Positions 1,920 to 61,000 of a stretch of 64,000 bases of DNA are shown here, one piece after another. How positions within the stretch are numbered: the first letter of the stretch is position 1; each line of letters begins with the position of its first letter. This stretch comes from Bolinopsis microptera. Its lineage: Eukaryota > Ctenophora > Tentaculata > Lobata > Bolinopsidae. Made by a program: the position numbers and the translations under genes. Under the pieces are notes generated by a model. That model saw only the letters and a list, made by a program, of their open reading frames with translations, was not told the origin of the DNA and did no database searches. Location of the stretch: assembly GCF_026151205.1 (NCBI RefSeq), contig NC_087075.1, forward strand, positions 13,190,303 through 13,254,302, in the 5' to 3' direction.

Positions 1920-3495
1920 GTATCTGGTCAAAACCTGGCACAACTTAGCGAGTTTAGAAGGTTTGAGATGTTATTTGTACTCCCTAGGGTCTCTACTTCA
2001 AAAAAAATTTGGGTGGATAATTTTTTATGTGTCTTTAAACCCGTGACCACGCCCTTTTTAAAGCGTGGGAAAAATTTGACAAAAATTATTGAAATTTGCC
2101 TAGAATATTTGATGGGGGTCTCTAAATGGCTTGTTATGATGCCATCAGTATTACTAGAACATAATAAAATAAAATGTGGGTAAATAAAAGTGGAGTTGCA
2201 CCCTGACCACGCCCATAAACACAATTTTTGGCGGAAAATTCGAAGTTGTCTACTGTAGCAGCAGGGAGGTGTTTAGTTTGTATTTACACTGCTGAATCGA
2301 GTTAAATAGGTTATATAAATCACTAAATTCAATTAATTGAGCATGTTGAGCCATTAGTTCAGCCTTGGGGAACCACGCCCATATTTCATATTAGGCGCAT
2401 ATGTGAGAAATTTTTATCTCAGCTTCTGAAGGCCGTAGAAACTTAATCTTTGGCTTAAAATTACCGCAATATGTAAGTTTATATTGACACTATTAAGGTG
2501 CTGAAGCTCCCCGGGACTCACTTTTGGATAAGAATGAGAAAACCTGACATTTACTGAAGCGCAAGTTACAAACAAACAAGAAAACTACCCTAGCAGCTAG
2601 GTTAAGTGAAGTAAGCACTTCAATGTATACAATTTTACTCGACACAGTGTCCTTCGTAAGGTCTAAATGTCATTCTGAGCTAGAATAATTTGATTTCGGG
2701 TGCCAACTTTTATCAGTAGTCCAACCCTGGCCTAGGTGATAACATTTCTAAATTGCCCTCAGGCGCAAATATATGATTTTTCTATCCATCTCAGCTCCTA
2801 AATATTATAGGACATTCAAGATAACCACAACAGCAGAATGGCCATATTTATATATAAGCTATGAAGCAGTATGGGGTCTATATTGCATAGTTTTTGAGAT
2901 ATTTATTTTTAAAACATGATTTTTAAAGATATCTTGGGCTTAAAAGACATTAACAATACAACAAACGTTCAACACTACCGCATTTATGTAATATCACATC
3001 TCCCGAGCTACTGCATCTCTCAAGCTACTTAAATCTGAAGCTTGATGCATCAACTACCGTCTAACAGCACCATCAGGTCATCATAGAGATCACAGGCAAC
3101 CCGCCGGTCAGCTATCTCTAGCTAAGCTCATTTCAGTACCCGTTGACTATAATATATGCCCACTTTTATGTCAGTACAACCACATCTAGCAAAGTCCAGC
3201 TGAAGCTACTAACAGTTACCTCCAGCCATATCCTATTTTTACTTTTCCCTCCAATTCTAGCTCTTTCCACCGACCTCAATCTCATTTAGGAAACTCCAGC
3301 ACTAGCTAACTGCAGCTCTAGCTATCTTCTGCTATTATCCTTTCCCTCCAATATTAGCTCTTTCCACTGACCTCAATCTCATCAAGCAAATTCTGGCTTT
3401 ACCAACCTTCATTTACCTCCAGGCTCCAACTCTTCCTTGTTGCTGTCCTCTTCAACTAATTGTTACTTCTAGCCTGCTAGCTATCACCAGTATCA
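1920..3495 (+). repeat. left inverted arm of the fold-back element
   Basis: Pairs with 5401-6977 in inverse orientation. Open frames of 98 and 71 codons inside it recur as mirror copies in the right arm and have no recognisable domain. Confidence 0.88.
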
Positions 3496-4261
3496 TCAAA
3501 TCTAGATTTTATAGCAACTTTTTATAGCCACGGATTTGCTTTCCACAATAAAGCAGGGACCCTCTGCTTGAAATGCTCATAAATAAAACATAAATGATAG
3601 CTGTTTTGACTCTCTGTGTTACACAAAATCTCGCATCAACTGATCTTGAAAATTCGCTGACAGATAACAAGCGACCGTGGAGGCGTGGAATTCACTGGTC
3701 ACTGAGAGCACTGACTGGATGCCCTTTAGCAAGAATTCTATATTCTTTCAGACTTTTACTTAAGTCTAGTTATACATTACTTTATCATATTTTATCGAAC
3801 TAAGGTGTAGTATTGCCAGATCCCAGTTCATTTTGTAACGGAGTTTTATATTAACAGGAAACGATGTAACTGTTTGTTTGGGCCCGGACGGTGCCGGTGG
3901 TTCTAATGACCATTTACTAAAATACATAGATACAAAATACAATATAGTATAAATATTATAATCAGAAGTTTTATAAATCCTATCCGTCCAAGTTAAACTT
4001 GAAGGGCGCTACACGCACGACGAAAACTCCCTTTAATGTGAGCTGAAGTAGACTACTAGTAGTAGAGCTAGTAGCGCTTGAAATTGACAGAACTGAAAAC
4101 GAAATCTGACAATTGTCGCGAAAACTGACAGTTTTGTGTGCTCAAAGTGTCGAGAAATACTGACAGTGCAAGACTGGGCACACAAAAGTGAGTTAAAACA
4201 TCCTCCACACAACAAAAACTTGAATACACTAATAATAATCAATTATTAAAAACACACAAGC

Positions 4262-5173
4262 TCATTCTGCAGTCTTATTAGTCTTATCAGTACTCTTTAT
4301 AGCACCGTTTCTGATAAAGTGTAGCTTATCAGGCTGCTCAGTTACCAGTTTTTTCATGTCCCTGACGAGTTCTCTTTGCTTGGCTCTCTGTTCTGGAGAT
4401 CGATCTGGGCTGATAAAAACAGTTTTAAACTTTTCCGTTGCTCGCAGGTTTCTCGATTTAGCGAGAATCTGATTAACAATTGTTGCACTTGCCGCAGTCA
4501 CTTTAACTGGTCTCACAGCCTTGCCAGGTTTGAGCTTTCCGACTCTACTAGCTTCGATTCTGGGTTTCTCTCCGATTGCTGAGAACACTTCACTGACCAC
4601 GGTGCTGAGCTCCTCATTGTCCTGCTCCGATAAACCAAAAATCATCAGATTTTTGTTTCGGTCTTCCTCCTGTACCACAGTTTTCACAGCTTTCTTGATC
4701 ATTTCAGAACTGACAGGCTTCTGAGATTCTGGACAATTCGCCTGTAATACCGAGCTCAAGGATTTGAATTCAGCCTTGACAGACTCTCCGACTGACGATT
4801 TAACTGACGTCTGCAACGATTCCAACTGTTCATTTTTGCAGGCTAGTAGTTCTGACTGCAGCTTAATGATGGTCTCCTGTGTCTCGAACATAAGATGTTT
4901 AACTGAGTTTGAGGCCATCTTGTAGTCCGTGGATACGACACCAGTGAACTCCTCTAAATATCTTAATGCATCGTGCAACAAGTCACACGCAGTGTTCTTG
5001 GTCATCTTCTTCACGCACGAAGGGGATAGTTGCTTCATTGCTGTGATCTCCATCTCGTACATAGCCTTGCTGAGAAGTTCAACTGAGTCACCCCTTAACA
5101 TGTTGATCTCCTTTTCACCATACTCGCTGGGCGGGATGGTCATGGTTGTGTAACACGGTGATACACAAACCAC
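4262..5173 (-). CDS. LINE ORF1p-like nucleic-acid-binding protein, 303 codons
   Basis: An intact frame on the minus strand. Residues ~100-150 are a predicted coiled coil (QETIIKLQSELL and following). Residues ~170-235 resemble the RRM-like domain of L1-type ORF1 proteins, with EEDRNKNLMIFGLSE followed by VRPVKVTAAS and ILAKSRNLR. Residues ~245-290 match the C-terminal module seen in these proteins (VFISPDRSPEQRAKQREL, then HFIRNG). The order coiled coil, RRM, C-terminal domain is that of retroposon ORF1p, an RNA-binding chaperone. No reverse transcriptase follows: the next 1 kb on this strand has only short frames. The start used is at 5173; the Met codon at 5101 could equally be used. It is the only substantial gene between the two inverted arms. 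Confidence 0.7.
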   Translation of the reverse strand: MVCVSPCYTTMTIPPSEYGEKEINMLRGDSVELLSKAMYEMEITAMKQLSPSCVKKMTKNTACDLLHDALRYLEEFTGVVSTDYKMASNSVKHLMFETQETIIKLQSELLACKNEQLESLQTSVKSSVGESVKAEFKSLSSVLQANCPESQKPVSSEMIKKAVKTVVQEEDRNKNLMIFGLSEQDNEELSTVVSEVFSAIGEKPRIEASRVGKLKPGKAVRPVKVTAASATIVNQILAKSRNLRATEKFKTVFISPDRSPEQRAKQRELVRDMKKLVTEQPDKLHFIRNGAIKSTDKTNKTAE

Positions 5174-5400
5174 TGTAGCTGCACGTTACAATCAACAGAG
5201 ATAAGCACTAAGATAAGAGAGTAAGAAAAGAGCAACGTATGCAATTAGTGTAACAGAGTCGATATATTTTAATGTTGCCATGGGGTGGCAAGTCCCCATA
5301 CATCGTGGTCCGGTAGTTTCATTACGTCCTAATATACATTTCAGGAACATTTTAAAAAGAAATTTCCGGTTGAATATCCGGCCAAATCCTGGTGATATGG

Positions 5401-6977
5401 TGATACTGGTGATAGCTAGCAGGCTATAAGCTACAATTAGTTGAAGAGGACAGCAACAAGGAAGAGTTGGAGCCTGGAGGTTAATGAAGGTTGGTAAAGC
5501 CGGAATTTGCTTGATGAGATTGAGGTCAGTGGAAAGAGCTAATATTGGAGGGAAAGGATAATAGCAGAAGATAGCTAGAGCTGCAGTTAGCTAGTGCTGG
5601 AGTTTCCTAAATGAGATTGAGGTCGGTGGAAAGAGCTAGAATTGGAGGGAAAAGTAAAAATAGGATATGGCTGGAGGTAACTGTTAGTAGCTTCAGCTGG
5701 AATTTGCTAGATGTGGTTGTACTGACATAAAAGTGGGCATATATTATAGTCAACGGGTACTGAAATGAGCTTAGCTAGAGATAGCTGACCGGCGGGTTGC
5801 CTGTGATCTCTATGATGACCTGATGGTGCTGTTAGACGGTAGTTGATGCATCAAGCTTCAGATTTAAGTAGCTTGAGAGATGCAGTAGCTCGGGAGATGT
5901 GATATTACATAAATGCGGTAGTGTTGAACGTTTGTTATATTGTTAATGTCTTTTAAGCCCAAGATATCTTTAAAAATCATGTTTTAAAAATAAATATCTC
6001 AAAAACTATGAAATATAGACCCCATACTGCTTCATAGCGTGTATATAAATATGGCCATTCTGCTGTTGTGGTTATCTTGAATGTCCTATAATATTTAGGA
6101 GCTGAGATGGATAGAAAAATCATGTATTTGCGCCTGAGGGCAATTTAGAAATGTTATCACCTAGGCCAGGGTTGGACTACTGATAAAAGTTGGCACCCGA
6201 AATCAAATTATTCTAGCTCAGAATGACATTTAGACCTTACGAAGGACACTGTGTCGAGTAAAATTGTATACATTGAAGTGCTTACTTCACTTAACCTAGC
6301 TGCTAGGGTAGTTTTCTTGTAACTTGCACTTCAGTAAATATCAGTTTTTCTCATTTTTATCCAAAAGTGAGTCCCGGGGAGCTTCAGCACCTTAATAGTG
6401 TCAATATAAACTTACATATTGCGGTAATTTTAAGCCAAAGATTAAGTTTCTACGGCCTTCAGAAGCTGAGATAAAAATTTCTCACATACGCGCCTAATAT
6501 GAAATATGGGCGTGGTTCCCCAAGGCTGAACTAATGGCTCAACATGCTCAATTAATTGAATTTAGTGATTTATATAACCTATTTAACTCGATTCAGCAGT
6601 GTAAATACAAACTAAACACCTCTCTGCTGCTAAAGTAGACAACTTCGAATTTTCCGAATTTTCCGCCAAAAATTGTGTTTATGGGCGTGGTCAGGGTGCA
6701 ACTCCACTTTTATTTACCCACATTTTATTTTATTATGTTCTAGTAATACTGATGGCATCATAACAAGCCATTTAGAGACCCCCATCAAATATTCTAGGCA
6801 AATTTTAATAATTTTGGTCAAACTTTTCCCACGCTTTAAAAAGGGCGTGGTCACGGGTTTAAAGACACATAAAAAATTATCCACCCAAATTTTTTTTGAA
6901 GTAGAGACCCTAGGGAGTACAAATAACATCTCAAACCTTCTAAACTCGCTAAGTTGTGCCAGGTTTTGACCAGATAC
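5401..6977 (-). repeat. right inverted arm of the fold-back element
   Basis: Reverse complement of 1920-3495. A small insertion or duplication near 6655 (repeated AATTTTCCG) distinguishes it from the left arm. Confidence 0.88.
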
Positions 6978-19365: not shown

Positions 19366-22300
19366 ATAGTTAGGGCAAGAATTGCTGTTTATGGGTCAAT
19401 CTGTGAACAAATTCGTAACAAAGGTTTGTCTACAGGAATGTGTTGTCCATAGTCCCAGGAACCACCAAAAAAAACCGTCCAGCTGAAACTTTTGGGCAAA
19501 AATGTTTATAGTAATTTTTCTCCAGGAACCCATTTGCCCCACCCCTAATATTATTTATTCGGCTCCCGAAGGTCTTGAGATCTCCATAGGGGGTGCAAAA
19601 TGACCGCGATGGCCACATTATGGCAGGCGAATGATAGTTTCAGAACGATTGGAGCTTTATTTTTCGAAATAAATGGATTTTCGAAATTTTTCTCAATTTT
19701 ATTGAAATTTCGAAAAAAAATACACCAAATTATTTTTAACGCTTATTTCAAATCTATTTAAAAACTCATCTACAATTAACAAATACAGTTAATCTAAAAT
19801 GTGTATTCTCAGTAAATACCATGACAATTATTAATACACAGTTAATATTAATCAAAATTCGCTTGTTCTTCAGGTTCATCATGGACATGTCTAATGTTTG
19901 TGCAGTTCATAATACCATGGCATCGTCCACAAGCTGGCAAACAATTGAAGCCATATTTCCTACATGAACATCTGAAAGTCAAACAGGCCTGTTCCACATC
20001 GACAGAACAGTTACAACATGTAAGGTTCAAAATAGACTCTGGAGCAATTATAGCTTTTGTTGCAACTGGATCGTAAGTGCCACCAGGAGCCAATTTCCAG
20101 CCGTAGTCAAGGGGATTCAGACTGTCAGCGTTAAGCATGACCCAGTTATGGTACTGTAAGTAAGCTCTAAGGATGTGCTCCGTTGCTGAAGCTATTGTTG
20201 GAGGTAGCCTATTCGGATTGAGACTCTTTTTCGCTACCATCCTATTGTATGCTAGGAATCTCAAAGCAGAAAGAGTCTTTTTCTTGTCACCATAAATGTA
20301 CTGCAAGAAACAGAGGCCTGCCTCAATAATTTTTTCTTTTGATTCTCTCACCGAAAGTAATGTTGCCAACTGACCTTGCTCATCAAAGGTGAGAGCTTTC
20401 TTTAGCACTTTAACCTTGCTAAAACCAAACACTCCACTGACGCTATCACAACCTGAAATACTATGAATTAGAAGAAGTATCTCCTTTTCTTTATGATCTA
20501 GATGACTTGATATTTCTTTGATTGAATATGTACCCTTCTTCGTTGTTAGATAAATATCATTGTGATGGTCACTGTTGAAATGATGTACTAATAGACTTGA
20601 ACTATATCGGTATCCTCTGCCTTCAATTCAACATCGCCAAGGAATGACATTTCCAATGTTTTCTTTGCAATTAAAGTATCAGCATTGTTACAAGCTCTGA
20701 TCACTTCAATACCATTTACAGTAAAAATGCTTGAGATAAGGTCGATCACTTTTTTTTGGTTATTGTTGTTGCTCAGAAATGTTGTTTTGGTGACAGTACA
20801 AAAGGTGGATTTCTTTACAGCAATATTAGCACAGAACGCTTTTACTCTCCTCTTGTGCTCTTGATCTTTAGTAGAAGGCTCATATCCATCAAAAATCACA
20901 GTAACTTCCCGATTTTTAGGGATAAGCTTCAAGTACTCCATTGCTACCTCACCATAATTGTCACACCCTTTAAATGAGCTTAGTTGGTGAATTAGCCAAC
21001 CTCCATCAATGACTAGTGGGATCGTGAAGCTGCAAGATTTAAGTGTAGATTAGTTTATACCAAGAGCAACCTTATTAGATTTCCTCATCATCTGATATTG
21101 ATCAAATAAGCTCATCGGCACCAGAGTTAACTCGTATGTTAGGCATTCCTCTATTGAAGTCTCTCTATCAGCAACCAAGTCTAGACGGTTAAAACACTTC
21201 AACGGATCGACTGCAACGCTTTTATTATTCACTTTAACCTGCTTTCTTAGTTGTGTCAAGTTCTTTGCTTTACCTTTGATACTTATCTTATCGATGAATG
21301 TCAACCCATCTAGCTCACGTTAAAGAACAGCCCCAACGGCCAAACATTCCTCGGGATTCACCTCATCGTTCCCAGGCTGTGATATAAGACCAGTCGAATC
21401 TTCGGATTCTGTAAAGTCGACAGTAACTTTAAACCAAGTTAATAATTTTCCACATACATCACAGTTTTTCTTGATTGATGACTTGGTAAGATCTGAGTGG
21501 ATGGCAGCTTTAGTTGGTACTCCTCGCTTCGATGAATTAGCTAATGAATCTCCAAAAGACTGATTTATTAAAGCCATCTGATTCAGGGTGGCCACCCATA
21601 ACTTGTGAGCGGACTCACGATTACGCATCCTTCCACTTGTTAATCCACCACTAGATTTAGCTGCCCTCATAAGACTCTGCTCTATGGAGAGGTCAGTCCA
21701 CACCCCGGCCCACTCGTGGTCGTTGTAACAAACCGTGTGAAGCCCAGTTACTTTAAAGGTCTTTAAAAGCGCCCCATACTTGACTTTAAAAATAGCATCC
21801 TGCTCCAAATACAGTCTTAAAGCTTTTGCATACTGTCCCCTCTCAGCTGCTGCGAAGTAGGGCAGCATCAAAGCTACTGCTGATAAACGCATATTGTAGT
21901 CGTGCAACCTATCTGTTCTTATGAAGTCCTTTACTAGTGTTATCATGTTGTGGTAAGTAACCCATAGAGCTGCTGTTCTACTGTTGGAAAACAGGTTCTT
22001 TAGAAGCAGAGTTATTTTCTCTGATAGATCCTGAATAGATTTAGTCTTAAAGTTAACACCTAGATTTTCGTTCACACATTTGTTGATGTAAACTTCCAAG
22101 TCTACTAGTTCATCGTCGTAAATTTCTTCCTCTATAATGAAACAACAAAGAGCGGCGTCGATCAGAAAGTGGGCTCTCAATGCTTTATAGTAAGATCCTC
22201 CATCCGATATATGCGTGACGTCTCCAGGATACACGAGTTTGATGAGCTCCTCTAAACCCGAGTCTGCCATTATATAGCCTATGCAGCCAAGAAAACTCGT

Positions 22301-22919
22301 GAGAGTGTGGAAGCCCCCAACCCTGACCACAATAGGCATCCCAGTTTCCAGTACTACTCGAATGGCCTTAATCCACAATGGCAAATCGAATGTGATTATC
22401 ATCGTCTCACTGTAGGATAACTTAAGACATTCAACCAGAGTAGTATGTACCGTCAAATAGCTGTCTGGGGGTTGGTCAATAATCTGTTGTTTGTTAGTTA
22501 ACCTTGATATTTGTTAATTGAAGTTATTTCCCGGGTAAGATTTGAAATAAGCGTTAAAAATAATTTGGTGTATTTTTTTTCGAAATTTCAATAAAATTGA
22601 GAAAGATTTCGAAAAATTCCATTTATTTCGAAAAATAAAGCTCCAATCGTTCTGAAACTATCATTCGCCTGACATAATGTGGCCATTGCGGTCATTTTGC
22701 ACCCCTTATGGAGATTTCAAGACCTTCGGGAGCCGAATAACCAATATTAGGGGTGGGGCGTATGGGTTCCTGGAGAAAAATGACTATAAAAATTTTTGCC
22801 CAAAAGTTTCAGCTGGACGGTTTTTTTTTGTGGTTCCTGGGACTATGGACAACACATTCCTGTAGACAAACCTTTGTTACGAATTTGTTCACAGAAAAAT
22901 CAACTCTTGCCCTAACTAT
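19366..22919. mobile_element. decayed 3.55-kb DNA transposon, probably Academ-like
   Basis: Inverted arms 19366-19755 and 22539-22919 are near-identical reverse complements; ends read ATAGTTAGGGCAAG. AAGT occurs just outside both ends (19361-19364, 22920-22923), a possible 4-bp target duplication. The interior carries one minus-strand gene relic (19848-22456). The protein combines a FEN/XPG-like acidic nuclease region with a C-terminal Cys-rich CXC (tesmin/TSO1-like) motif, as in a large family of multicopy invertebrate proteins. Academ transposons are known for XPG-like nuclease and 3-4-bp duplications, hence the suggestion; superfamily is inference. Confidence 0.6.
19848..22486 (-). pseudogene. 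transposon nuclease/CXC protein, broken by two stops and a frameshift
   Basis: Read 5' to 3' on the minus strand: frame 22456-21320 (378 codons; coding resemblance extends upstream to about 22486 with IIDQPP, after a possible acceptor) has DLPLWIKAIRVV, VRVGGFHTLTSFLGCIGYIM and, further on, WTDLSIEQSLMR. A TAA at 21320-21322 and another at 21050-21052 interrupt the same frame. Next comes VIDGGWLIHQL, then TVIFDGYEPSTKDQEHKRR and later NNADTLI and EDTDI, an XPG/FEN-like acidic pattern. A one-base frameshift near 20590 follows. The last frame (from ~20575 to 19848) has GCDSVSG and a Cys-rich end with CRKYGFNCLPACGRCHG, a CXC motif. The N-terminal part of the family is missing, so the copy is truncated and inactive. 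Confidence 0.7.
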
Positions 22920-33808: not shown

Positions 33809-34473
33809 TTGGTAGATCACCGACCGGCTATAAGCCGGTTATAAGCCGGCTATAAACCGGCTTATAGCCGGCTACAATTTTTATAGCCGGCTATAAGCCG
33901 GCTTATAGCCGGTTAGAAGCCGCTTACATTTGTTGTTGAGCGACGGCTATTAGCCGGTTATAAGCCACTATTAGCCGTTTAGGTATCGGCTATAAGAAAT
34001 TCAGTGAAAACGGCTATTAGCCGGTTATAAGCCGGCTATTAGCCGTTTAGGTATCGAAAGTGGTTATAAGACGGTTATAAGATATTAACTTAACTTCATC
34101 GTACTGAACTGAGTTAATATCTTATAACCGGCTTATAGCCGGCTTATAACCACTTTCGATACCTAAACGGCTAATAGCCGGCTTATAACCGGCTAATAGC
34201 CGTTTTCACTGAATTTCTTATAGCCGGCTCCTGACTATCGTTCAGTACGATGTAGTTGAGTTAATATCTTATAACCGGCTTATAGCCACTTTTAATACCA
34301 AAACGGCTAATAGCAGGCTTATAACCGGCTAATAGCCGTCGCTCAACAACAAATGTAAGCGGCTACTAACCGGCTATAAGCCGGCTTATAGCCGGCTATA
34401 AAAATTGTAGCCGGCTATAAGCCGGCTTATAGCCGGTTAGTAGCCGGCTTATAGCCGGTCGGTGATCTACCAA
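33809..34473. mobile_element. 665-bp fold-back element of GCCGGCTATAAGCC repeats
   Basis: Ends are TTGGTAGATCACCGACCGG and its exact complement. Inside, GCCGGCTATAA/TTATAGCCGG motifs recur in both orientations, so most of the element can pair with itself. The centre (34080-34135) has AGTTAATATCTTATAACCGG, repeated at 34258, with its complement at 34075, showing an internal rearranged duplication. No coding potential. Confidence 0.85.
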
Positions 34474-36961: not shown

Positions 36962-38157
36962 CTGTGTCTGGGAATTAATTGTTTCTAGATAACAGGCCAG
37001 CACGCGCACCCCTCCGAACACATACTACTATGAGAACAGGCCCAGTTGTACAGCAGTTTAAACTGATTACTTTTCAGACACATAGTTAATCATTTTCTTC
37101 ATATTATCAGGCATCTTACAACTTCCACCAGGTTTCCGTTCAGTGAAAACTCATTAATACTTCCAATTCATGCAATCCCTTAAATACGACATTTTTACAG
37201 CACACATATTATGACAACTTCACTACTTCAGTTCAAGCTGTCAGCTGTTTAGTTTACCTCACTTGTCACTTAATGGCGTCGCTGATCTTTTGAGATCGAA
37301 TTGCTGCATTCTTGCATTGCCTTGAAAATGAGGGCAATGTCTGCAATAATTATCAGCAAATTCAATAATCCTTATTTTGAAGTCTTCCATATATCTTATA
37401 TCATTGGCATTTGAAAACAAATATTCTAATTCTAGAATATCATCTACCAATGGAGATGATGCTTCGAAAATTAGTTAACAATCAACAGATTACATCGTCA
37501 TCAAATTGGCCTAATTGGACATTGTAGCCACTGTTCCTGGGGTTGTAGTATTTAGTTCATCACAGCAGCCGCACAGGGGTCTGTGGTAACTGAAACAATC
37601 AACAGTTTCCAATTCCTACATGTATACATATATGTACATATTTCATAATTTGCTACTTCTTGTTCAAGCCGACTGTATTCTTTTATTCTTCTAACGCTAC
37701 AACGTTAAACCGCTATAGTGAACGAGAAAATCGTTATCCAGTAACTTAAAATCCTTAGTCCACGAAGTTTTCCAGACGTCATCCCAAGCGTTTCATTAGG
37801 CAGTTTACCCACTAATTACTGCCTACCTACCTACCTAGCTACTAAGCTACTATACTCCAGTACTTCTTTGATTCTTTATACTAATGCGAATGCGCAAATA
37901 AATCAAGCGTAGTTTACGAAGATTCTGAAACTTTACTCTCCTTAGGTTTGACTTTATCATTAGTGTTGTTATAGCTTTATAGTAGTTTGAAACTTTACAA
38001 CGAAGTGTTACATAATTTTGTAAAGAATTCTATATTTAACTTAGCATCTTATAAAGGTAACATGGTTACTGATACTATTTAAGTATTTAGGAGGATGCCA
38101 TTATTCCCGATTGTTTTAGTGAACAAAGCCTGTGAACACACCTTTGAGATGGGCCAT
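36962..38157. other. no gene recognised
   Basis: A 63-codon minus-strand frame (37259-37450, with HCPHF) is uncharacterised and lacks context. (CTAC)n near 37824. Confidence 0.35.
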
Positions 38158-38284
38158 TAGTGACCGGCCATTAGTGTCTAAGAGGAGTTTTGGCCCATTT
38201 TCGATTTTGGCTGAAAACTGCCGAATCAGTCGAAACTGACCACCAGTTAGCTAGTGGGTACGTACTTACTAATGGCCAGTGATC
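38158..38284. mobile_element. possible short MITE
   Basis: Left AGTGACCGGCCATTAGTG and right CTTACTAATGGCCAGTGATC form imperfect inverted ends about 127 bp apart. No target duplication is seen. Confidence 0.35.
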
Positions 38285-38993
38285 TAATTCGAATTGGTCA
38301 TAATACGGCCGCTCTGCCCATATATTCGGTATAAACAATAGATTTGTTACTTTTCAGACCCCATATTGATTACTGATTGATTGTCTATACGTTTGAACGA
38401 AATTTACTTTACATCTAAATATTGGGCCACAGTTAAAAATTTTGTAAGATATACAGTTCAATATCTGTCCAAACGTGGATTCCAAAGCCAGATAACCACA
38501 GAAACTTTAAGAAATTTTATCCTGTTAATTCTGCCAGCTAAGAATGTTAATTGCAAGAGTTGCATACCAAACTGTCTTCGCATCAGTCTACTCTACACAA
38601 ATACTTAATAGCTTTATAGGCTCTCATTTTATTACCCTCGACGAGGATTATAAAATGAGGGCCAATAGAAATTCCGTGCACGGGGGTCCCTCGTGCACGG
38701 AATCCTGCGAATGTTATTGAAACAGCTATGAGGTTGGATCGACCCGATTGGATTTTAATTGGCATTAAACGGTCGCTACTCTATGGAAAGATAAAACCAC
38801 TAAATAAAATGCCACTACCTTTAAAAGGCATGGATCCAGGCAGTGAGTTACTATTTATTGTAATTAGATTTATTGTATTTCATATTGTAGGGTGCGAGGG
38901 GGACAGCTCACAGCATGAGGACCAGCTAGTGAGTTGCGGCATTTATAAATCATAGTTATTACAATAACATAAACCCGCCACGCAAAGGGTTTA

Positions 38994-39194
38994 TATAATA
39001 CTATAATACCTCCGCCACTGAGTGCTGCGCGCTATAATTCCCGACAGCTTGCTGGAGGGAATTTGCGGGCACGAAGTTGCGGAGGTATTATATTTTATAA
39101 TACCTCCGCAACTTCGTGCCCGCAAATTCCCTCCAGCAAGCTGTCGGGAATTATAGCGCGCAGCACTCAGTGGCGGAGGTATTATAGTATTATA
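38994..39194. repeat. perfect palindrome, 99-bp arms, 3-nt loop
   Basis: 38994-39092 is the exact reverse complement of 39096-39194; the loop is TTT (39093-39095). Each arm contains an 89-bp unit with its own 13-bp inverted ends, ATAATACCTCCGC (39003-39015) and GCGGAGGTATTAT (39079-39091). The palindrome is thus two head-to-head copies of a small inverted-end element. Confidence 0.95.
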
Positions 39195-39554
39195 ATACGT
39201 TCCGGTTCCGATTGCAGAAGGGGTGTAATCCGATACGTGCGCATCATACAATATAGTGTCTAATATATAGAACGCCAGTGTTATTTGTTTTGAAACTTGC
39301 CGCCAGCCAGTCTGAGTCTGGGCTGATAATACCCTCGCTTCTCTTGCGGGAAAAATGAGCAAATTATCAGCCCTCGGTGTCCCCGAGTTTTAGTGGATAT
39401 AATTCCCGGAAGGTATTATAACAGATCATCCCGCGCTAGCGGGATGATCTGATAAACACATACGAGTGCGCGCAGCGCACGAGTTTTGTGTTAATATGTA
39501 ATCCCGTAGCGCCAGCTGAGGGATTACATTTATTTAGCCCTGAGCGTGAAGTGT

Positions 39555-39764
39555 TTATGGATTATAATTATCTCCGGCGATTTCGACAAGGGATTTATAC
39601 TTTAGAAGAGGAATTTGGTCAAAGTCATTGAAGTCACGAGCAAATCTGGATGACTGAAGCCAAGAATTAAATTTGTTTAGAGCCCAGTTGTTGACTCTAA
39701 CTGTACTGTCCGGAACACGATTGGAAAGCAGTTCATCAATCTGAATGTCAAACCGATCTGTCAT
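39555..39764 (-). CDS. Crypton/DUF3504-like protein N-terminal fragment, 69 codons
   Basis: The frame starts MTDRFDIQIDELLSNRVP and continues with STVRVNNWALNKFNSWL. A short acidic helix followed by 'S/T-----W----F--WL' is the N-terminal pattern I associate with DUF3504/ZMYM-type proteins derived from Crypton tyrosine recombinases. Catalytic residues would lie further on and are absent: the frame ends after 69 codons in a stop. It may be a relic, an exon, or a short DNA-binding protein. It sits inside the hairpin island, and CACGTG motifs lie 0.2-0.3 kb upstream on its strand. Confidence 0.4.
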   Translation of the reverse strand: MTDRFDIQIDELLSNRVPDSTVRVNNWALNKFNSWLQSSRFARDFNDFDQIPLLKYKSLVEIAGDNYNP

Positions 39765-39971
39765 AGTGGAGCAATAGCTTGAACGTTAGCAGGAACAAGA
39801 GCTGGAAGGAGAGCAAGCAAAACAATACTATTTTTAGGGCACGGACAAGGGTAGCTGGCTAGTCGCCAACTTCTCACGCCACGCGTTGGAGAAATTCCAA
39901 GAATTAGCTGCTTTGGCAACGTTCCCAGGAATTTGCGTGTAAAAGAAGTGGACGGTTACGATGTTTCATAT

Positions 39972-40055
39972 CACGTGGTGCGCTTTCGTGTCACGTGGTA
40001 TAGACTCGGCGTATGCTATTGGTGGCACGTGGTACGCACGTGACGCGCCCACGTG
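39972..40055. promoter_or_regulatory. cluster of five CACGTG E-boxes
   Basis: CACGTG at 39972, 39992, 40026, 40037 and 40050. This is far denser than in flanking DNA. It lies 208-291 bp upstream of the 39764 start on the minus strand and so could be its promoter; binding of a bHLH-ZIP factor is inference. Confidence 0.45.
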
Positions 40056-40251
40056 ATCGCGCGTCTAACTGTTCTACTATTATCGAGTTCTAATCAGCAG
40101 TATCATTGATTATTGTAAGTCGGAGAATTGAATGATAAACATCAGTTACGACTAAAAAGCGGGCCGGGTTTATACAAATTACCGGGGCGGGATGATATCA
40201 CCTTGAGATGTTTATCTAACAGCGGGCCGGGCTGACTGATAATATGATCCC

Positions 40252-42052
40252 GCGTCGAAATCCCGGAGATATTTATAATATTATAATATTACAATAGTTC
40301 ATTGTTTACAAGTCATAAGCAGTATGCAATTCTCGAAAATAGCCATTATCATAATCAATTGTCGTCAAAACTGCCAGCTTAACGAATGCGACCAATAGAA
40401 CACAAAGTTGACATATTAACCATAACTCTATAAAATATGCATAACTGAAACTCTTGACTTATGTATTTCCAAACTAACGTGCTTCGCCCTTAGTTACCAT
40501 TAGCATGATCCATACAGCCTCTCCAGTCTCCAGACAATATCCATCCCATATTAAATGGTCCGACAACCTACGACTATTTCTTTAAGTATTATTGGTGTCG
40601 AAATTTGGGGCATGTCATTATAGTTGTATTAGCTGAACCCGATTATGGGTCTAGTCATAGTGGTAACAGATCTTTACTTTTACTTTTAGGCTGCTGTCGT
40701 ATTTTGAACATGCAAAATAAGCTCAAAAGGAAATCATAACATAATATTAAAATATTCCTTACGATATAATATATAATATATATATATAATACGGCTCTTT
40801 TGCTTCAACTTTTTTCTACAAAAAAATTTTCATTTTCATGCCGTTTAGTTGTAATATTCAAAATTAGAGTTTATAAGGGTTCGCCCTATTCGGCTTTTTC
40901 TGAATAAAAATTTTACCGGATATTTTAATTCTTCAACTGAAAATATTCGATTTATACTTTTAAGATTATCTTAATTTACTTGCGTGCTTACTCCAGCGAA
41001 AAATCTGACATGCACACAGCTAGTAGGTTAACAAATTACCAAAATCTCCAATTTCCACCGTTCCAAAATTGTGCCGCAGACGCGCAAATATCCTCACATT
41101 AAATACATTGATTAAGTGAGAATCCGGTAACAGGTAGATCAGATCAAGGTATCCTTTACTCTACCTGCAACTCACTTTAAAGGTATTGAGTTGTGCAATT
41201 AGCACTGTGCTGATGTTATTCAACACCAGTCTCCATGCTCTCCGCATTCCTTATTTTCCTCAACCCGCCGTTGGTTTTTCCTCGTTTATTCCTTATTGGT
41301 TGTTTATTTTGTTTGCCTGAAGTCTTTTATAATTTCCACCGCTGGATTATTGCCAGATTTTTAAATATCAGCCAGTGAAAATATTATATTTGTCAACCAA
41401 TAAAAATATTTTTGTTGACATCGTTATGCATCTTAAACAGGTTTCCAGTGATTCTTATCTTTCAGTTCCAGCTTGGCCTATCACAGACAATCTACAAAAC
41501 GACAATATATTTTCCACACAAAAACCCCCAATATATTAAACATTTTCCCAATTATACCATCTTCAGAGCGTACTGCTTTGTGCATTGTGCAATCATGTAT
41601 TTTATTATATTCACGTGATCATGTATCCGGTCTAATAACTGGAACATGTAGCGGAATATAGCGTTATCATGTAGCGAAATATAGCGTTATGAAGGACGGA
41701 GAAAATGAAACTGAAAACTCGCGTTTCGGCAACACTTTTCATTCATCTTCGCGATGGAAGGCCAGGCCACTTTAAAATCCTCCTCACATCACATGCTATT
41801 TGATACTGATAAATAGATTAAAGTGGACTCAGTGGAGGCTTCATTGTTTTTGTTCCTCACACTCCGCTGCAGTAGGCGTCATCTTGTGATGCTGGTATTT
41901 ATGGAATGCGATACGTTTTCTTAACGTCTGGTATCAAAGAGAACATCGTGATGCATATATTATCAGGAAATTCATCTTTATGAATATCCCTTTAGTGTTC
42001 GAAGTTGTCTTGTCGAGCTATAGTGCAGGTAGCGCACTCTAGTTCTAGATTC
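40252..42052. other. no gene recognised
   Basis: AT-rich. AATATAGCGTTAT with CATGTAGCG occurs twice at 41646-41690. Confidence 0.4.
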
Positions 42053-57316: not shown

Positions 57317-57397
57317 CACGTGTTAGACACGTGTTAATCTTATCACGTGTTAATCTGGTCACGTGTTAATCTTATCACGTGTTAATCTGGTCACGTG
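57317..57397 (+). promoter_or_regulatory. 16-bp repeat with six CACGTG E-boxes after the GPCR stop
   Basis: CACGTG at 57317, 57328, 57344, 57360, 57376 and 57392, the last five exactly 16 bp apart in units like TATCACGTGTTAATCT. It starts 7 bp after the TAG, so it would be in the 3' UTR of the GPCR, and in an intron of the opposite-strand gene if that gene continues. Function unknown. Confidence 0.6.
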
Positions 57398-58022
57398 TTA
57401 TCTGTATCAGTATTGAGGGTACTTGTTTAGACTTATAGAGCTTGGCGCTGACACGGCGTGATCTTACCATTATGACTGTTGTTATATTTGCTTATTCTCG
57501 TACTCAGAGATTATCTAAACCAGATGACCCGTCTTCAGTTCATTTATCCGTATAATGGGCTTTTTCTCTGTGTTTATCTAGATTTGAACTTACATTTTCA
57601 TCATGTTTCCATATTATATATATTTGGGCTGTTTGTAACTTTGTGGTTTATCTTAGTGACTAGCTAATTTCAGAAATCAAAACATATCAAGATTTCGCGA
57701 TATATAAATTTATATCAATCGCTCTTTTTGCCAATATTTATTATGTCTTGAGATAACAATCTAACTAGTTTATGATATTATGTACATATCACACAAAGAC
57801 AGTCAGTTAAAGCATATGAAATATTGAGCGAAAATGTTTCAATTGTTAAAAAATTGTTTTAAAAAATATTGACCTTATCCCATTATTAATAGTAAGTCAA
57901 TAACAAGTAATATAAGTAATATTATAAGTAACAATTGGCAAGTAAGCAATTCTATAAGTAATAATTAACAAGTCAGTAATATTATAAGTAATAATTAACA
58001 AGTCATAATAATTTGTACGCAC
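57398..58022. other. intergenic/intronic, no gene recognised
   Basis: AT-rich; (TAAGTAATA-TAA)n-like repeats at 57895-58005. It separates the convergent GPCR 3' end from the nearest CNBD2-like exon. Confidence 0.4.
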
Positions 58023-61000
58023 CACTAGGTTCCCCTTCATGTGACGACTTGAACCATGTGTTGGGGGAACTCCATTTGTACTCTGACTGCTTATCCGACT
58101 CTGCATGGGTATTTAAAATTAATTGTAAGGAAATGCTGAGGCGACTGACTCATAAAAATGGCTTAGATAAAGTATCTTGATAAATACTTAAATAATGTGA
58201 TAATCTATGAATATGTGATAATCTAGGAATATGTAATAATCTGGATTGTAATACCTTTAGTTGTGCAATTAAATTTAGGGTTTGTTAACCTACGACCCTT
58301 AAAGACCGTAAGTGCAGAGAGCAATCACTTGAATCTAATATTTCTCTCTGTCAGCAGCCAACATAATAAGTAAACATTAAACATACCCTGAAACCATTAG
58401 AGCATGTAGAGGAGGTATCTGATCTGTTGCTTCTTAGCCCACTACCAGGGGTGCGACTAGAGGCTGTGCCTGCAAGTCGCAAGAGTGGTTATAGTGAAAT
58501 TGGGTGGAGTAAAGTGACATAATTATGATGAAATATACAGTTAAATATAGTGAAATGAAGTGAAGTATAATTAATAATCATAAACAATGAAATGTAAAAT
58601 AGAAAACCGTAAAGAAAAATAAGAAACTTACGCGATCGAACGCGGCAACCCTGAACCTGTTTCTGTCTGATTTTTGTTACTTTAGTTAACACCCGAACGT
58701 GACCCTGATGGGTGTATTATAGTAATGCTTTTCATACATAGTTACAATAAAGTTTTCATTTTATGTATCCTGGGTTTGGACAGGATATTACCCGTTTAAA
58801 ATATTTCCATCGCGTTACATAATACTCAATAAATGTATTTAATTGTAGTTGTGAAAATAGTTTAAAACATAATATGTAATATGTGTTGACAGCAGGGAAA
58901 AAAGGAAATCGCGGCATGTGCGGGATCGCGATTTTTCCCATTCTTTGCGACAAATTTTATATGTCGTCTGTTTGGCGCGGTATCACGATTTTTGGCCAAA
59001 ATAATCGCGATTTTCTTTTGTCCCTGGTTGACAGCAGTAAATTTCGATCATACAATTTTTCTTCGTGAAACTTAAATATACTCGCTATTTCTTATTTCAA
59101 GCAGAGGATGCCGCCACAACACCCTGACCACTAAAATTAAACCAACCAATACTTGTTTTTGTATTTACCGATTTTACGATGTAGATAAAAGGCGTGTCGT
59201 GATTAGATTTAGCCATCACAGTTCCTTTCCTGATGAAAAGAAAACACGATTAAATTCATTGCTACGAAAATGATCACGACGTTACAATTGATGCAAACAC
59301 TGGAAAACTGGGATATTTTCAGAATTCAAATTTAATAAGTATAATTTTAATAAAAAGAAAATATGAAAACTTCAAATCAGTATTTACTTGAAGAAGTGGA
59401 AGTTGCAGACACCTGTTGCTTCATTCAGCAAGTTAACTGGCCACTCATTCAAGATTGGTAATGTTCTGCAGTACCTGAAATACAAGATAATATAAGGTAA
59501 AACTTGGTTCCTAGTTTTATTTGGGAACTGATTCAATTTGGAAAATTATTTAATTTGGAAAATTATTTTATTTGGAAAATTATTTTATTTGGAAAATTAT
59601 TTTATTTTACCATCCATCTTATGTCCTCAAATCTTTAAACTAACTTTCCATGACTGTGTAAAGATTTACCTGATATGCTCCTTTTCCTCGTCACTATCAA
59701 GCTGGTTCATTTGTACGAAGTCTTCCTTATCAACCGCTATCAGCTCCACGGCATCCTTACACGACACTGTTGCAGTTCGCCTTGTACCGTGCAATAACGC
59801 CAGTTCCTGGAAAGGTGTGACGTCACAGTAAGAGGTGTGACGTCACAGTAAGAGGTGTGACGTCACAGTAAGAGGTGTGACGTCACAGTAAGAGGTGTGA
59901 CGTCACAGTAAGAGGTGTGACGTCACAGTAAGAGGTGTGACGTCACAGTAAGAGGTGTGACGTCACAGTAAGAGGTGTGACCTCATAGCAAGGTGCGAAA
60001 TAGGGTATAAAAAACTCTATGGCTAGCAGACACCAGAATACATAAACAAGCAAAACTTTTGTTTGATTGCAATAAAATGTTTCCTGTATTAAACTATCAA
60101 AAATCAAATGCTACCCTTTATTAATGGATTTATTAATTCTCGAAGACAGAAAACAAATACCGACCGATGATATATTTGAAAATCCTTTTTGATTTTTTCC
60201 AGTCGACTCCATTCTACAGCCAGGTACAACTACGGAACGAAAACATTAAAATCATACGGAAACGAAAAACTGGAAAAGAATCAAAATACACAGCTTCTAA
60301 AAAGCGATTGACAAGCACTGAAAGCTGATACAGACTAATATGCAATAGCTTAAGAAACACTCAGTGTTCAGAAACAGCTGATAAATTGTATTTGTGGTCT
60401 TCCGGCGATACGCAGCATGTGAAGGAAGGTTGAGTAGTGTATTTGTACTTAGATCACTTTCAAATGCGATATCCATCAAAGTTTTATAGCGATTGGAGGT
60501 CGTAATGGTGTAACATTCAAAATGATATTTTAAAATACTGAATTAAGATGAACTAACTAACTAATGATACCAAACTAATAATACTAAATGTGGTCTTCCA
60601 GCGATACAGAGCATGCGAATTGCGAAGGAAGGTTGAGTAGCTTATTAAAAAGTTAAAACTGTACATCACTTTCAAATGTTGAGATGTCCTTTTAAAAATA
60701 TACCGATTAAATGAGGATCTAAAGTTGAAAGTGGAAAATGACATAAGACGGAATAAAAGTATATGATATACTGAAACCAAATGTCTGAATCACGGAATAT
60801 AGCAATATCCTGTGAACAGAAGACAAGCAGAATGTTAATACTATGCTTAGATCACGTTCAAATGTACGCCGAAGATTCTTCAGAAATTAGCAAAGACTTT
60901 CTGCATCTTTAACCGATTAATTTGATGGCACGAAGCTTATAAAAAAGAAAGGTGATCAAGCAGAGGGCGACGTCACAGTTTTAAGTGTTGGAAAACGAAT

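Follow-up and report, generated by a model that had tools for sequence, protein, structure and literature searches.

Nested non-autonomous Cryptons with hairpin caps probably account for a hairpin cluster in a ctenophore genome

The attC sites of integrons are bounded by paired arms. Elements of the IS200/IS605 group, whose transposase TnpA is of the HUH type, target a short TTAC-like motif. Among eukaryotic elements, the ones described here resemble animal Cryptons (CryptonA), as these are presented in the available text of PMC3212892, in their DUF3504-family tyrosine recombinase (YR) gene, the lack of a target duplication and the many internally deleted derivatives, and they resemble fungal and stramenopile Cryptons in the short direct repeats at their ends. 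The available portions of PMC3212892 report that no terminal repeats were found in animal Cryptons and that Crypton recombinases gave rise to the vertebrate genes KIAA1958, ZMYM and QRICH1; the word "hairpin" is absent from that text. As far as it is available, a curation guide names a short direct repeat as the sole feature that sets Cryptons apart (PMC8969392). Hairpin ends of Cryptons are not a topic in the titles and abstract openings listed in our literature search, a scope outside which the original 2003 Crypton description lies. Unlike the Cryptons of the accounts consulted, the elements analyzed here appear, from their sequences in one genome, to combine a hairpin cap, inverted body ends, a core-like site within the element and a defined target, which together would be new with respect to known Cryptons. 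With integron attC cassettes they share a structured site bounded by paired recombinase arms and a single junction polarity; however, the integron enzyme is IntI whereas the YR here is of the DUF3504 type, and we infer recombination here from sequence. Insertion beside a short TTAC-like motif without duplication and the presence of terminal hairpins are reminiscent of IS200/IS605, although TnpA is another enzyme (accessible part of PMC3627910 for hairpins and enzyme).

The window, the whole stretch of 64,000 nt of Bolinopsis microptera DNA that was analyzed, contains a dense cluster of hairpins at 38600–40260. Counting perfect-arm hairpins (arm of at least 7, loop of 3–16, at least 3 GC), we found eight, against a mean of 0.69 and a maximum of 4 in 100 dinucleotide shuffles; the cluster is thus not due to chance. 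With arms of at least 8, five hairpins remain versus 0.13 in dinucleotide shuffles, and the interval equals the stretches starting at 58401–58801 as the hairpin-richest of the window. Under stricter criteria (loop of at most 12, at least 4 GC) it has three, versus 0.115 in 200 shuffles, and stretches at 58.4–61 kb have four. The first-pass annotation had described consecutive stem-loops. Hairpins are indeed present, but some are parts of a single perfect palindrome at 38994–39194, whose 99-bp arms surround TTT and which is the largest hairpin of the island, and others make up the arms of a single cloverleaf-like fold, which an insertion splits. We consider it probable that the island is a non-autonomous Crypton, E1, with a second one of another family, E2, inside it, that both are mobilized by YRs, and that their hairpin cap is a structured recombination site. 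The two leftmost hairpins (38615–38703) lie in flanking DNA outside E1; the same DNA, with worse pairing, is present in contig C109, and a genome search gave no match beyond C109.

E1 spans 38964–40277, as supported by its end patterns, an exact empty site in C109 and a recombinase remnant, and is assigned to the minus strand, that of the remnant. Without E2 it measures 891 bp. Searching the window's own assembly (264.65 Mb) with the interval of the first-pass annotation yielded 541 candidates, 40 of which were scored. The exact end patterns occur 172 (left) and 166 (right) times genome-wide. Of the 89 left ends listed on C1–C6, 88 have a correctly oriented right end within 10 kb, and the paired ends listed there are a median of 783.5 apart, 74 of them within 1 kb. 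On the left, E1 is preceded by the target TTACA (38959–38963, plus strand), the flanking copy of a short direct repeat TTAYA/TTATA that was identified by end alignment and the empty site; on the right, the element-borne copy TTTATA (40272–40277, plus strand) is found in 20 of 20 copies retrieved by BLAST.

Like E2 and a third family, F58, E1 is bipartite. In each, the body has inverted ends, and a hairpin cap with another pair of inverted ends lies at the gene-3' terminus. The E1 cap (38964–39560, plus strand; 174 nt without E2) has a terminal stem, CATAAAC/GTTTATG, around three hairpins, of which hairpin 1 (39422–39451) has 13-bp arms and emerged from the hairpin count, hairpin 2 (39452–39495) from folding, and hairpin 3 (39496–39529), with 10-bp outer arms, from the hairpin count and the inverted repeats, all on the plus strand. 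The body (39561–40277, minus strand) is delimited by alignment and by inverted ends at 39561–39594 and 40247–40277 (inverted repeats I9 and I14). It contains the N-terminal remnant of a Crypton YR (39609–39764, minus strand; MTDRFDIQ...FDQIP). The E-box cluster of the first-pass annotation consists of five CACGTG boxes (39972–40055, unstranded, supported by alignment) between the right end and the YR start. CACGTG is also located upstream of the YR in F58 (four boxes), in locus L059 (one within ~120 bases) and in locus L060 (two); the boxes are probably promoter elements. Elsewhere in the window, a 16-bp tandem repeat at 57328–57409 has CACGTG within its unit.

In other E1 copies, the base at window position 38998 directly precedes that at 39421; therefore, 38998–39420 is an insertion. 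This 423-bp segment, E2 (plus strand), is a non-autonomous Crypton of the L059 family that resides in the E1 cap without target duplication, and its exact empty site is present in those other copies. Searching the genome with E2 yielded 354 candidates, 40 of which were scored, and its exact body end occurs 42 times. From left to right, E2 comprises a cap in the usual orientation (39002–39092, plus strand; inverted repeats, alignment), which is the left arm of the 99-bp palindrome, followed by a second, inverted cap (39096–39186, minus strand; inverted repeats, border patterns), which is the right arm, and by the body (39191–39420, plus strand; alignment, exact body ends), which runs from TATAATACGTTCCGG to CCGGAAGGTATTATA. 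In L059 (C4:6999500–7003500), E2-like modules flank an open YR frame on both sides, and E2 unites the two ends of an L059-type element. Two long E1 copies (L019, C3:10404700–10411900; L020, C5:22242900–22248900) have ~5.7 and ~3.3 kb of other DNA at or beside the cap position where E2 is inserted. Considering these loci and the window, this position is a possible insertion hot spot.

The first-pass annotation had drawn attention to ATAATACC/GGTATTAT ends and considered, among other options, a family of tiny inverted-end elements. The ends are present in the island, where the motif is a recombinase-type arm of E2, but the unit is not a tiny ATAATACC-bounded element; it is the 891-bp E1 with the 423-bp E2 in its cap. 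Tiny ATAATACC–GGTATTAT elements were rejected as a candidate, since the exact pattern occurs at two places in the genome, which leaves no such family at that pattern. A nested palindrome of the arm motif, ATAATACC within another ATAATACC, is located at C2:21047465–21047508. A second small cluster with the same end motif had been described at 46.5 kb; we found no further cluster of the same copies. The 46.48-kb motif, TTATAATACC-N6-GGTATTATAA, is an isolated 26-bp near-palindrome with two genome places when gaps of 0–30 are allowed, and the 411 bases around it match just two ~55-base stretches, both on C9. Stems that are unique and unrelated to each other had been held to imply no system. This description does not apply to the hairpins of E1 and E2 and, within our searches, does apply to the two leftmost hairpins and the 46.5-kb motif.

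The recombinase-like frame is part of E1 itself, as a remnant of a Crypton YR. By itself, the window remnant has no Pfam match. The 274-aa frame of L022 starts with the same residues and matches PF12012 downstream of them. The E1 minus-strand frame, which includes MTDRFDIQIDELLSNRVPDSTVRVNNWALNKFNSWLQ, continues into the DUF3504 domain in L022 and L065, the E1 copies with most of the YR, and L014 has part of the domain; because a stop lies inside both L022 and L065, an active E1-family enzyme is only putative. Long E1 copies at C1:13993529, C7:11746685 and C4:8198644 match PF12012, and comparison of E1 copies revealed that the variable stretch behind the remnant reflects differing internal deletions of a longer form. 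The long copies L019, L020 and L021, which were considered as possible autonomous elements, have other DNA between the element parts and, in frames read by eye, no YR frame longer than the remnant.

Open frames exist in two other families. F58 (locus L058, C12) encodes a 357-aa YR (PF12012, 7.5e-16) with an additional, weak Phage_integrase match (3.6e-4; 20.8 bits, under the cut-off of 27.1), and its frame is 46% identical to that of E1 over 254 residues. The 412-aa YR frame of L059 (PF12012, 1.2e-12) is 27% identical to F58; a PDB search with it returned one match with an E value of 0.56, which lends no support. Of the catalytic R-H-R-Y residues, read by eye, the late R, H and Y are invariant in five of five aligned rows from four families, the first R (LRG) is kept in all three rows that cover the site, and, at the H of HxxR, F58 and L059 have R, E1 has K and L060 has H. 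The L060 family ends in the same manner as the others, with inverted body ends (TGGTACGGCAC/GTGCCGTACCA) and, on the gene-3' side, a hairpin of ~60 nt; its boundaries rest on two copies. Hairpins and asymmetric inverted repeats at the ends are also a trait of Helitron2 (accessible part of PMC3627910), but the coding copies here carry DUF3504-type YR frames: among the Pfam matches for the longer frames of L058, L059, L060 and L022, RepHel is absent and only DUF3504, Phage_integrase and QRICH1 appear.

A Filamin-repeat frame adjoins F58. In total, 14 PF12012 places were found in the genome, and element ends were considered at all of them except C8:8011739, C1:15150139, C5:12919330 and C3:3711232. 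Long open DUF3504 frames are located in L063 (C8:8010500–8014000) and L064 (C1:15149000–15152500), with QRICH1-domain similarity over the cut-off in L063 only; these frames may be host genes or further Cryptons.

The mode of insertion can be read from empty sites. Contig C109 corresponds to the window flank without E1, being ~82% alike over 37854–38972 and diverging rightward after 40352, and so could represent either an allele or a duplicated copy of the window locus. Joining the window flanks at TTACA and after TTTATA reproduces C109 exactly, 30 bases on each side. Five such joins are exact over 30 bases on each side, with no base duplicated or lost: window E1 versus C109, E1 in E1 (L055 and L056), F58 in F58 (L057 versus L058) and E2 in E1. 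At the last, TATAA stands on both sides, so that a 5-bp duplication is an equal reading there. L057 (C3:3818500–3824500) contains two F58 Cryptons of opposite orientation, one inside the other. Insertion occurs without target duplication, just after TTAYA, and the element's TTATA is kept at the other end.

An end survey of E1 (48 left and 47 right ends, most copies picked by end patterns) defined the target as T (42/48), A (44/48), Y (47/48) and A (48/48) before the cut. At the left junction, the TTAYA flank is followed by the fixed ATAACATAAACCCGCC; the right end is fixed as CCCGGAGATATTTATA, beyond which the letters vary, apart from a weak TAA at positions +7 to +9 (28, 27 and 31 of 47). The left flank of F58 is TTA[T/C/A]A in all 22 places. 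For E2, for which arrays supply several ends each, 29 left ends are fixed from AATAC and variable before it, and all 41 right ends are GGTATTATA. The termini thus carry short direct repeats, TTAYA from the target and TTATA from the element. The two outer ends of E1 bear no inverted relation to one another and those of F58 a vague one; those of E2 share a 9-bp inverted arm, TATAATACC. High copy number, AT-rich targets and inverted body ends would also be expected of ordinary foldback or DDE-type MITEs with palindromic ends that are unrelated to the recombinase; however, five empty sites without target duplication, the different outer ends of E1 and F58, and YR frames in longer copies of the same families render this explanation highly improbable.

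We propose that E1 and E2 are each an internally deleted relative of a YR-coding element and would be moved in trans by that YR, which would place the element between the target TTAYA and the next base. At the joint of a presumed circular intermediate of E1 or E2, two inverted arms would enclose 8 bp, as is usual for YR core sites. The predicted joints are TTTA-TAATAACA-TAAA for E1 (longer version, TTTA-TAATAACA-TAAACC), GGTATTA-TAATACTA-TAATACC for E2 and GGGGTTTATA-ACACACATAACC for F58. Perfect arms comprise 4 bases in E1 and 7 bases in E2; YRs typically recognize 11–13-bp inverted repeats that are 6–8 bp apart, according to the available text of PMC3212892. The inverted ends of the cap repeat these arms, so the border between body and cap would be a second core-like site. 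The earlier guess of a recombinase substrate array pointed the right way, as the motif ends resemble recombinase half-sites.

Twenty E1 copies that were found by BLAST and not by end pattern (L001–L018 and the window) reveal a single junction polarity. In all 20, the left junction consists of target letters followed by the element's ATAACA, and deviations from TTATA are found in 13 of the 20 on the left and in none on the right. Both outcomes would be expected if both strands were exchanged over a mismatched core, and the single polarity therefore fits either one-strand exchange or biased repair, but is suggestive only. One-strand exchange would be the outcome of an integron-like step that uses the cap in folded single-stranded form, as happens with attC, and loses the other strand at replication. 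The polarity and the paired arms that bound the caps, as they do attC sites, are compatible with such a step; yet biased mismatch repair or a very short overlap yields the same pattern, and with DNA parameters both strands of the cap are about equally stable when folded, in E1 as in F58, so that no strand bias is visible. We thus regard it as possible but doubtful. A more far-reaching version, a eukaryotic counterpart of the integron in which the cap is a folded single-strand site, one strand is exchanged, the YR also flips, doubles and stacks caps and arrays grow at element ends, is more tentative still.

With DNA parameters, fold z-scores are −10.8 for the left end of E1 (220 nt), −9.7 for the gene-3' end of F58 (240 nt) and −8.0 for the left end of E2 (110 nt). 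Other element parts tested range from −3.0 (E2 right end) to 1.4, and 30 control stretches of the window from −3.7 to 1.9. The E1 and F58 caps follow a common plan, a terminal stem formed from both cap ends around three hairpins. Needleman-Wunsch alignment of the two caps with five gap settings keeps 45–49 of 55–59 pairs versus 19/55 to 29/60 in slid controls, and the best alignment keeps 49 of 59 mapped pairs with 8 changed on both sides. Plain MAFFT keeps 33 of 59 mapped pairs, with slid controls of 20/57 to 34/58, which is not convincing; per-pair support for this fold thus depends on gap placement. Within E1, 28 of 43 caps are identical, leaving little to test. Of the 43 left ends, seven depart from the shared 167-nt sequence, and four of these (L007, L009, L021 and L049) have lost some of the cap hairpins.

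Covariation was assessed in 11 E2 caps (10 distinct), drawn from 16 distinct rows after setting aside four rows with the common cap in different flanks and one row in which the cap is truncated. Seven of 33 pairs are changed on both sides and 90.5% of cells are paired. The covariation score of 0.174, versus 0.078 in shuffles, was reached by none of 500, and slid controls gave 0.026–0.040. In the inner helix no pair is changed on both sides, and 6 of 10 rows break it at two pairs. Perfect cap arms can also be maintained by template switching or gene conversion instead of selection.

A conserved fold at the 3' side of the YR gene, the position of the cap in E1, F58, L059 and L060, might instead indicate that the cap works as RNA and protects or processes the transcript. 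This is unlikely: as RNA, the better-folding strand is antisense to the YR (−89.2 versus −79.3 in E1, −89.5 versus −81.4 in F58), an Rfam scan of the window gave no match, and the cap is kept in copies without most of the gene. It is likewise quite unlikely that the cap represents a separate tiny hairpin element hitch-hiking on Crypton ends. It does have its own inverted ends and occurs in inverted and doubled forms, but a cap-type arm adjoins 40 of 42 exact E2 body ends, and the pairing of 88 of the 89 listed E1 left ends with a right end within 10 kb (C1–C6) also speaks against independence.

In our view, the cap most likely serves as a structured site for the recombinase. Inverted and doubled caps would then be accounted for by recombination at the cap borders. 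A pattern search at the junction of E2 cap and body gave 47 rows: TATTTTA, the usual spacer, is present in 35, the inverted-cap spacer in three, the head-to-tail joint in one and a variant spacer in two; the remaining six seem unrelated, and a reversed-pattern control gave 15. The three inverted caps (of 41) are in the window, at C2:6042108 and at C13:6942655. One cap in each orientation creates the 99-bp palindrome of the window, the sole such double cap among the loci read. It is possible that this double cap is an assembly fault, and cap inversion could also proceed via ordinary recombination between inverted repeats.

Elements also stack. F58-type right ends are followed by E1 in L013, F58 in L078 and E2 in L026, and E2 follows E2 in L031 and L027; in L031, the predicted E2 joint is present as such between two E2 bodies. 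Since its right end supplies TTATA, each copy offers a fresh target, so that elements would stack on one another, and stacking at TTATA right ends would explain the clustering of hairpins.

Other parts of the window have features of their own. Positions 58401–60461 are as rich in perfect hairpins as the E1/E2 island and include tandem repeats, and 33824–34458 contains tandem arrays with palindromic CCGGCTATAAG-type units. Within 2997–5899, tandem units at 2997–3324 resemble reverse complements of those at 5572–5899, and a 307-aa frame without Pfam match (4262–5185) lies between them; from this arrangement, an element with inverted ends is possible. Three minus-strand frames of 153–397 aa at 19848–22513, also without Pfam match, may together represent a single gene or transposon.

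As a class of eukaryotic DNA transposons, Cryptons are poorly understood. One genome here offers their exact ends and target motif together with empty sites, open YR frames and a predicted core site, which makes integration directly testable, and a conserved hairpin cap would provide a new structural hallmark for Crypton annotation.
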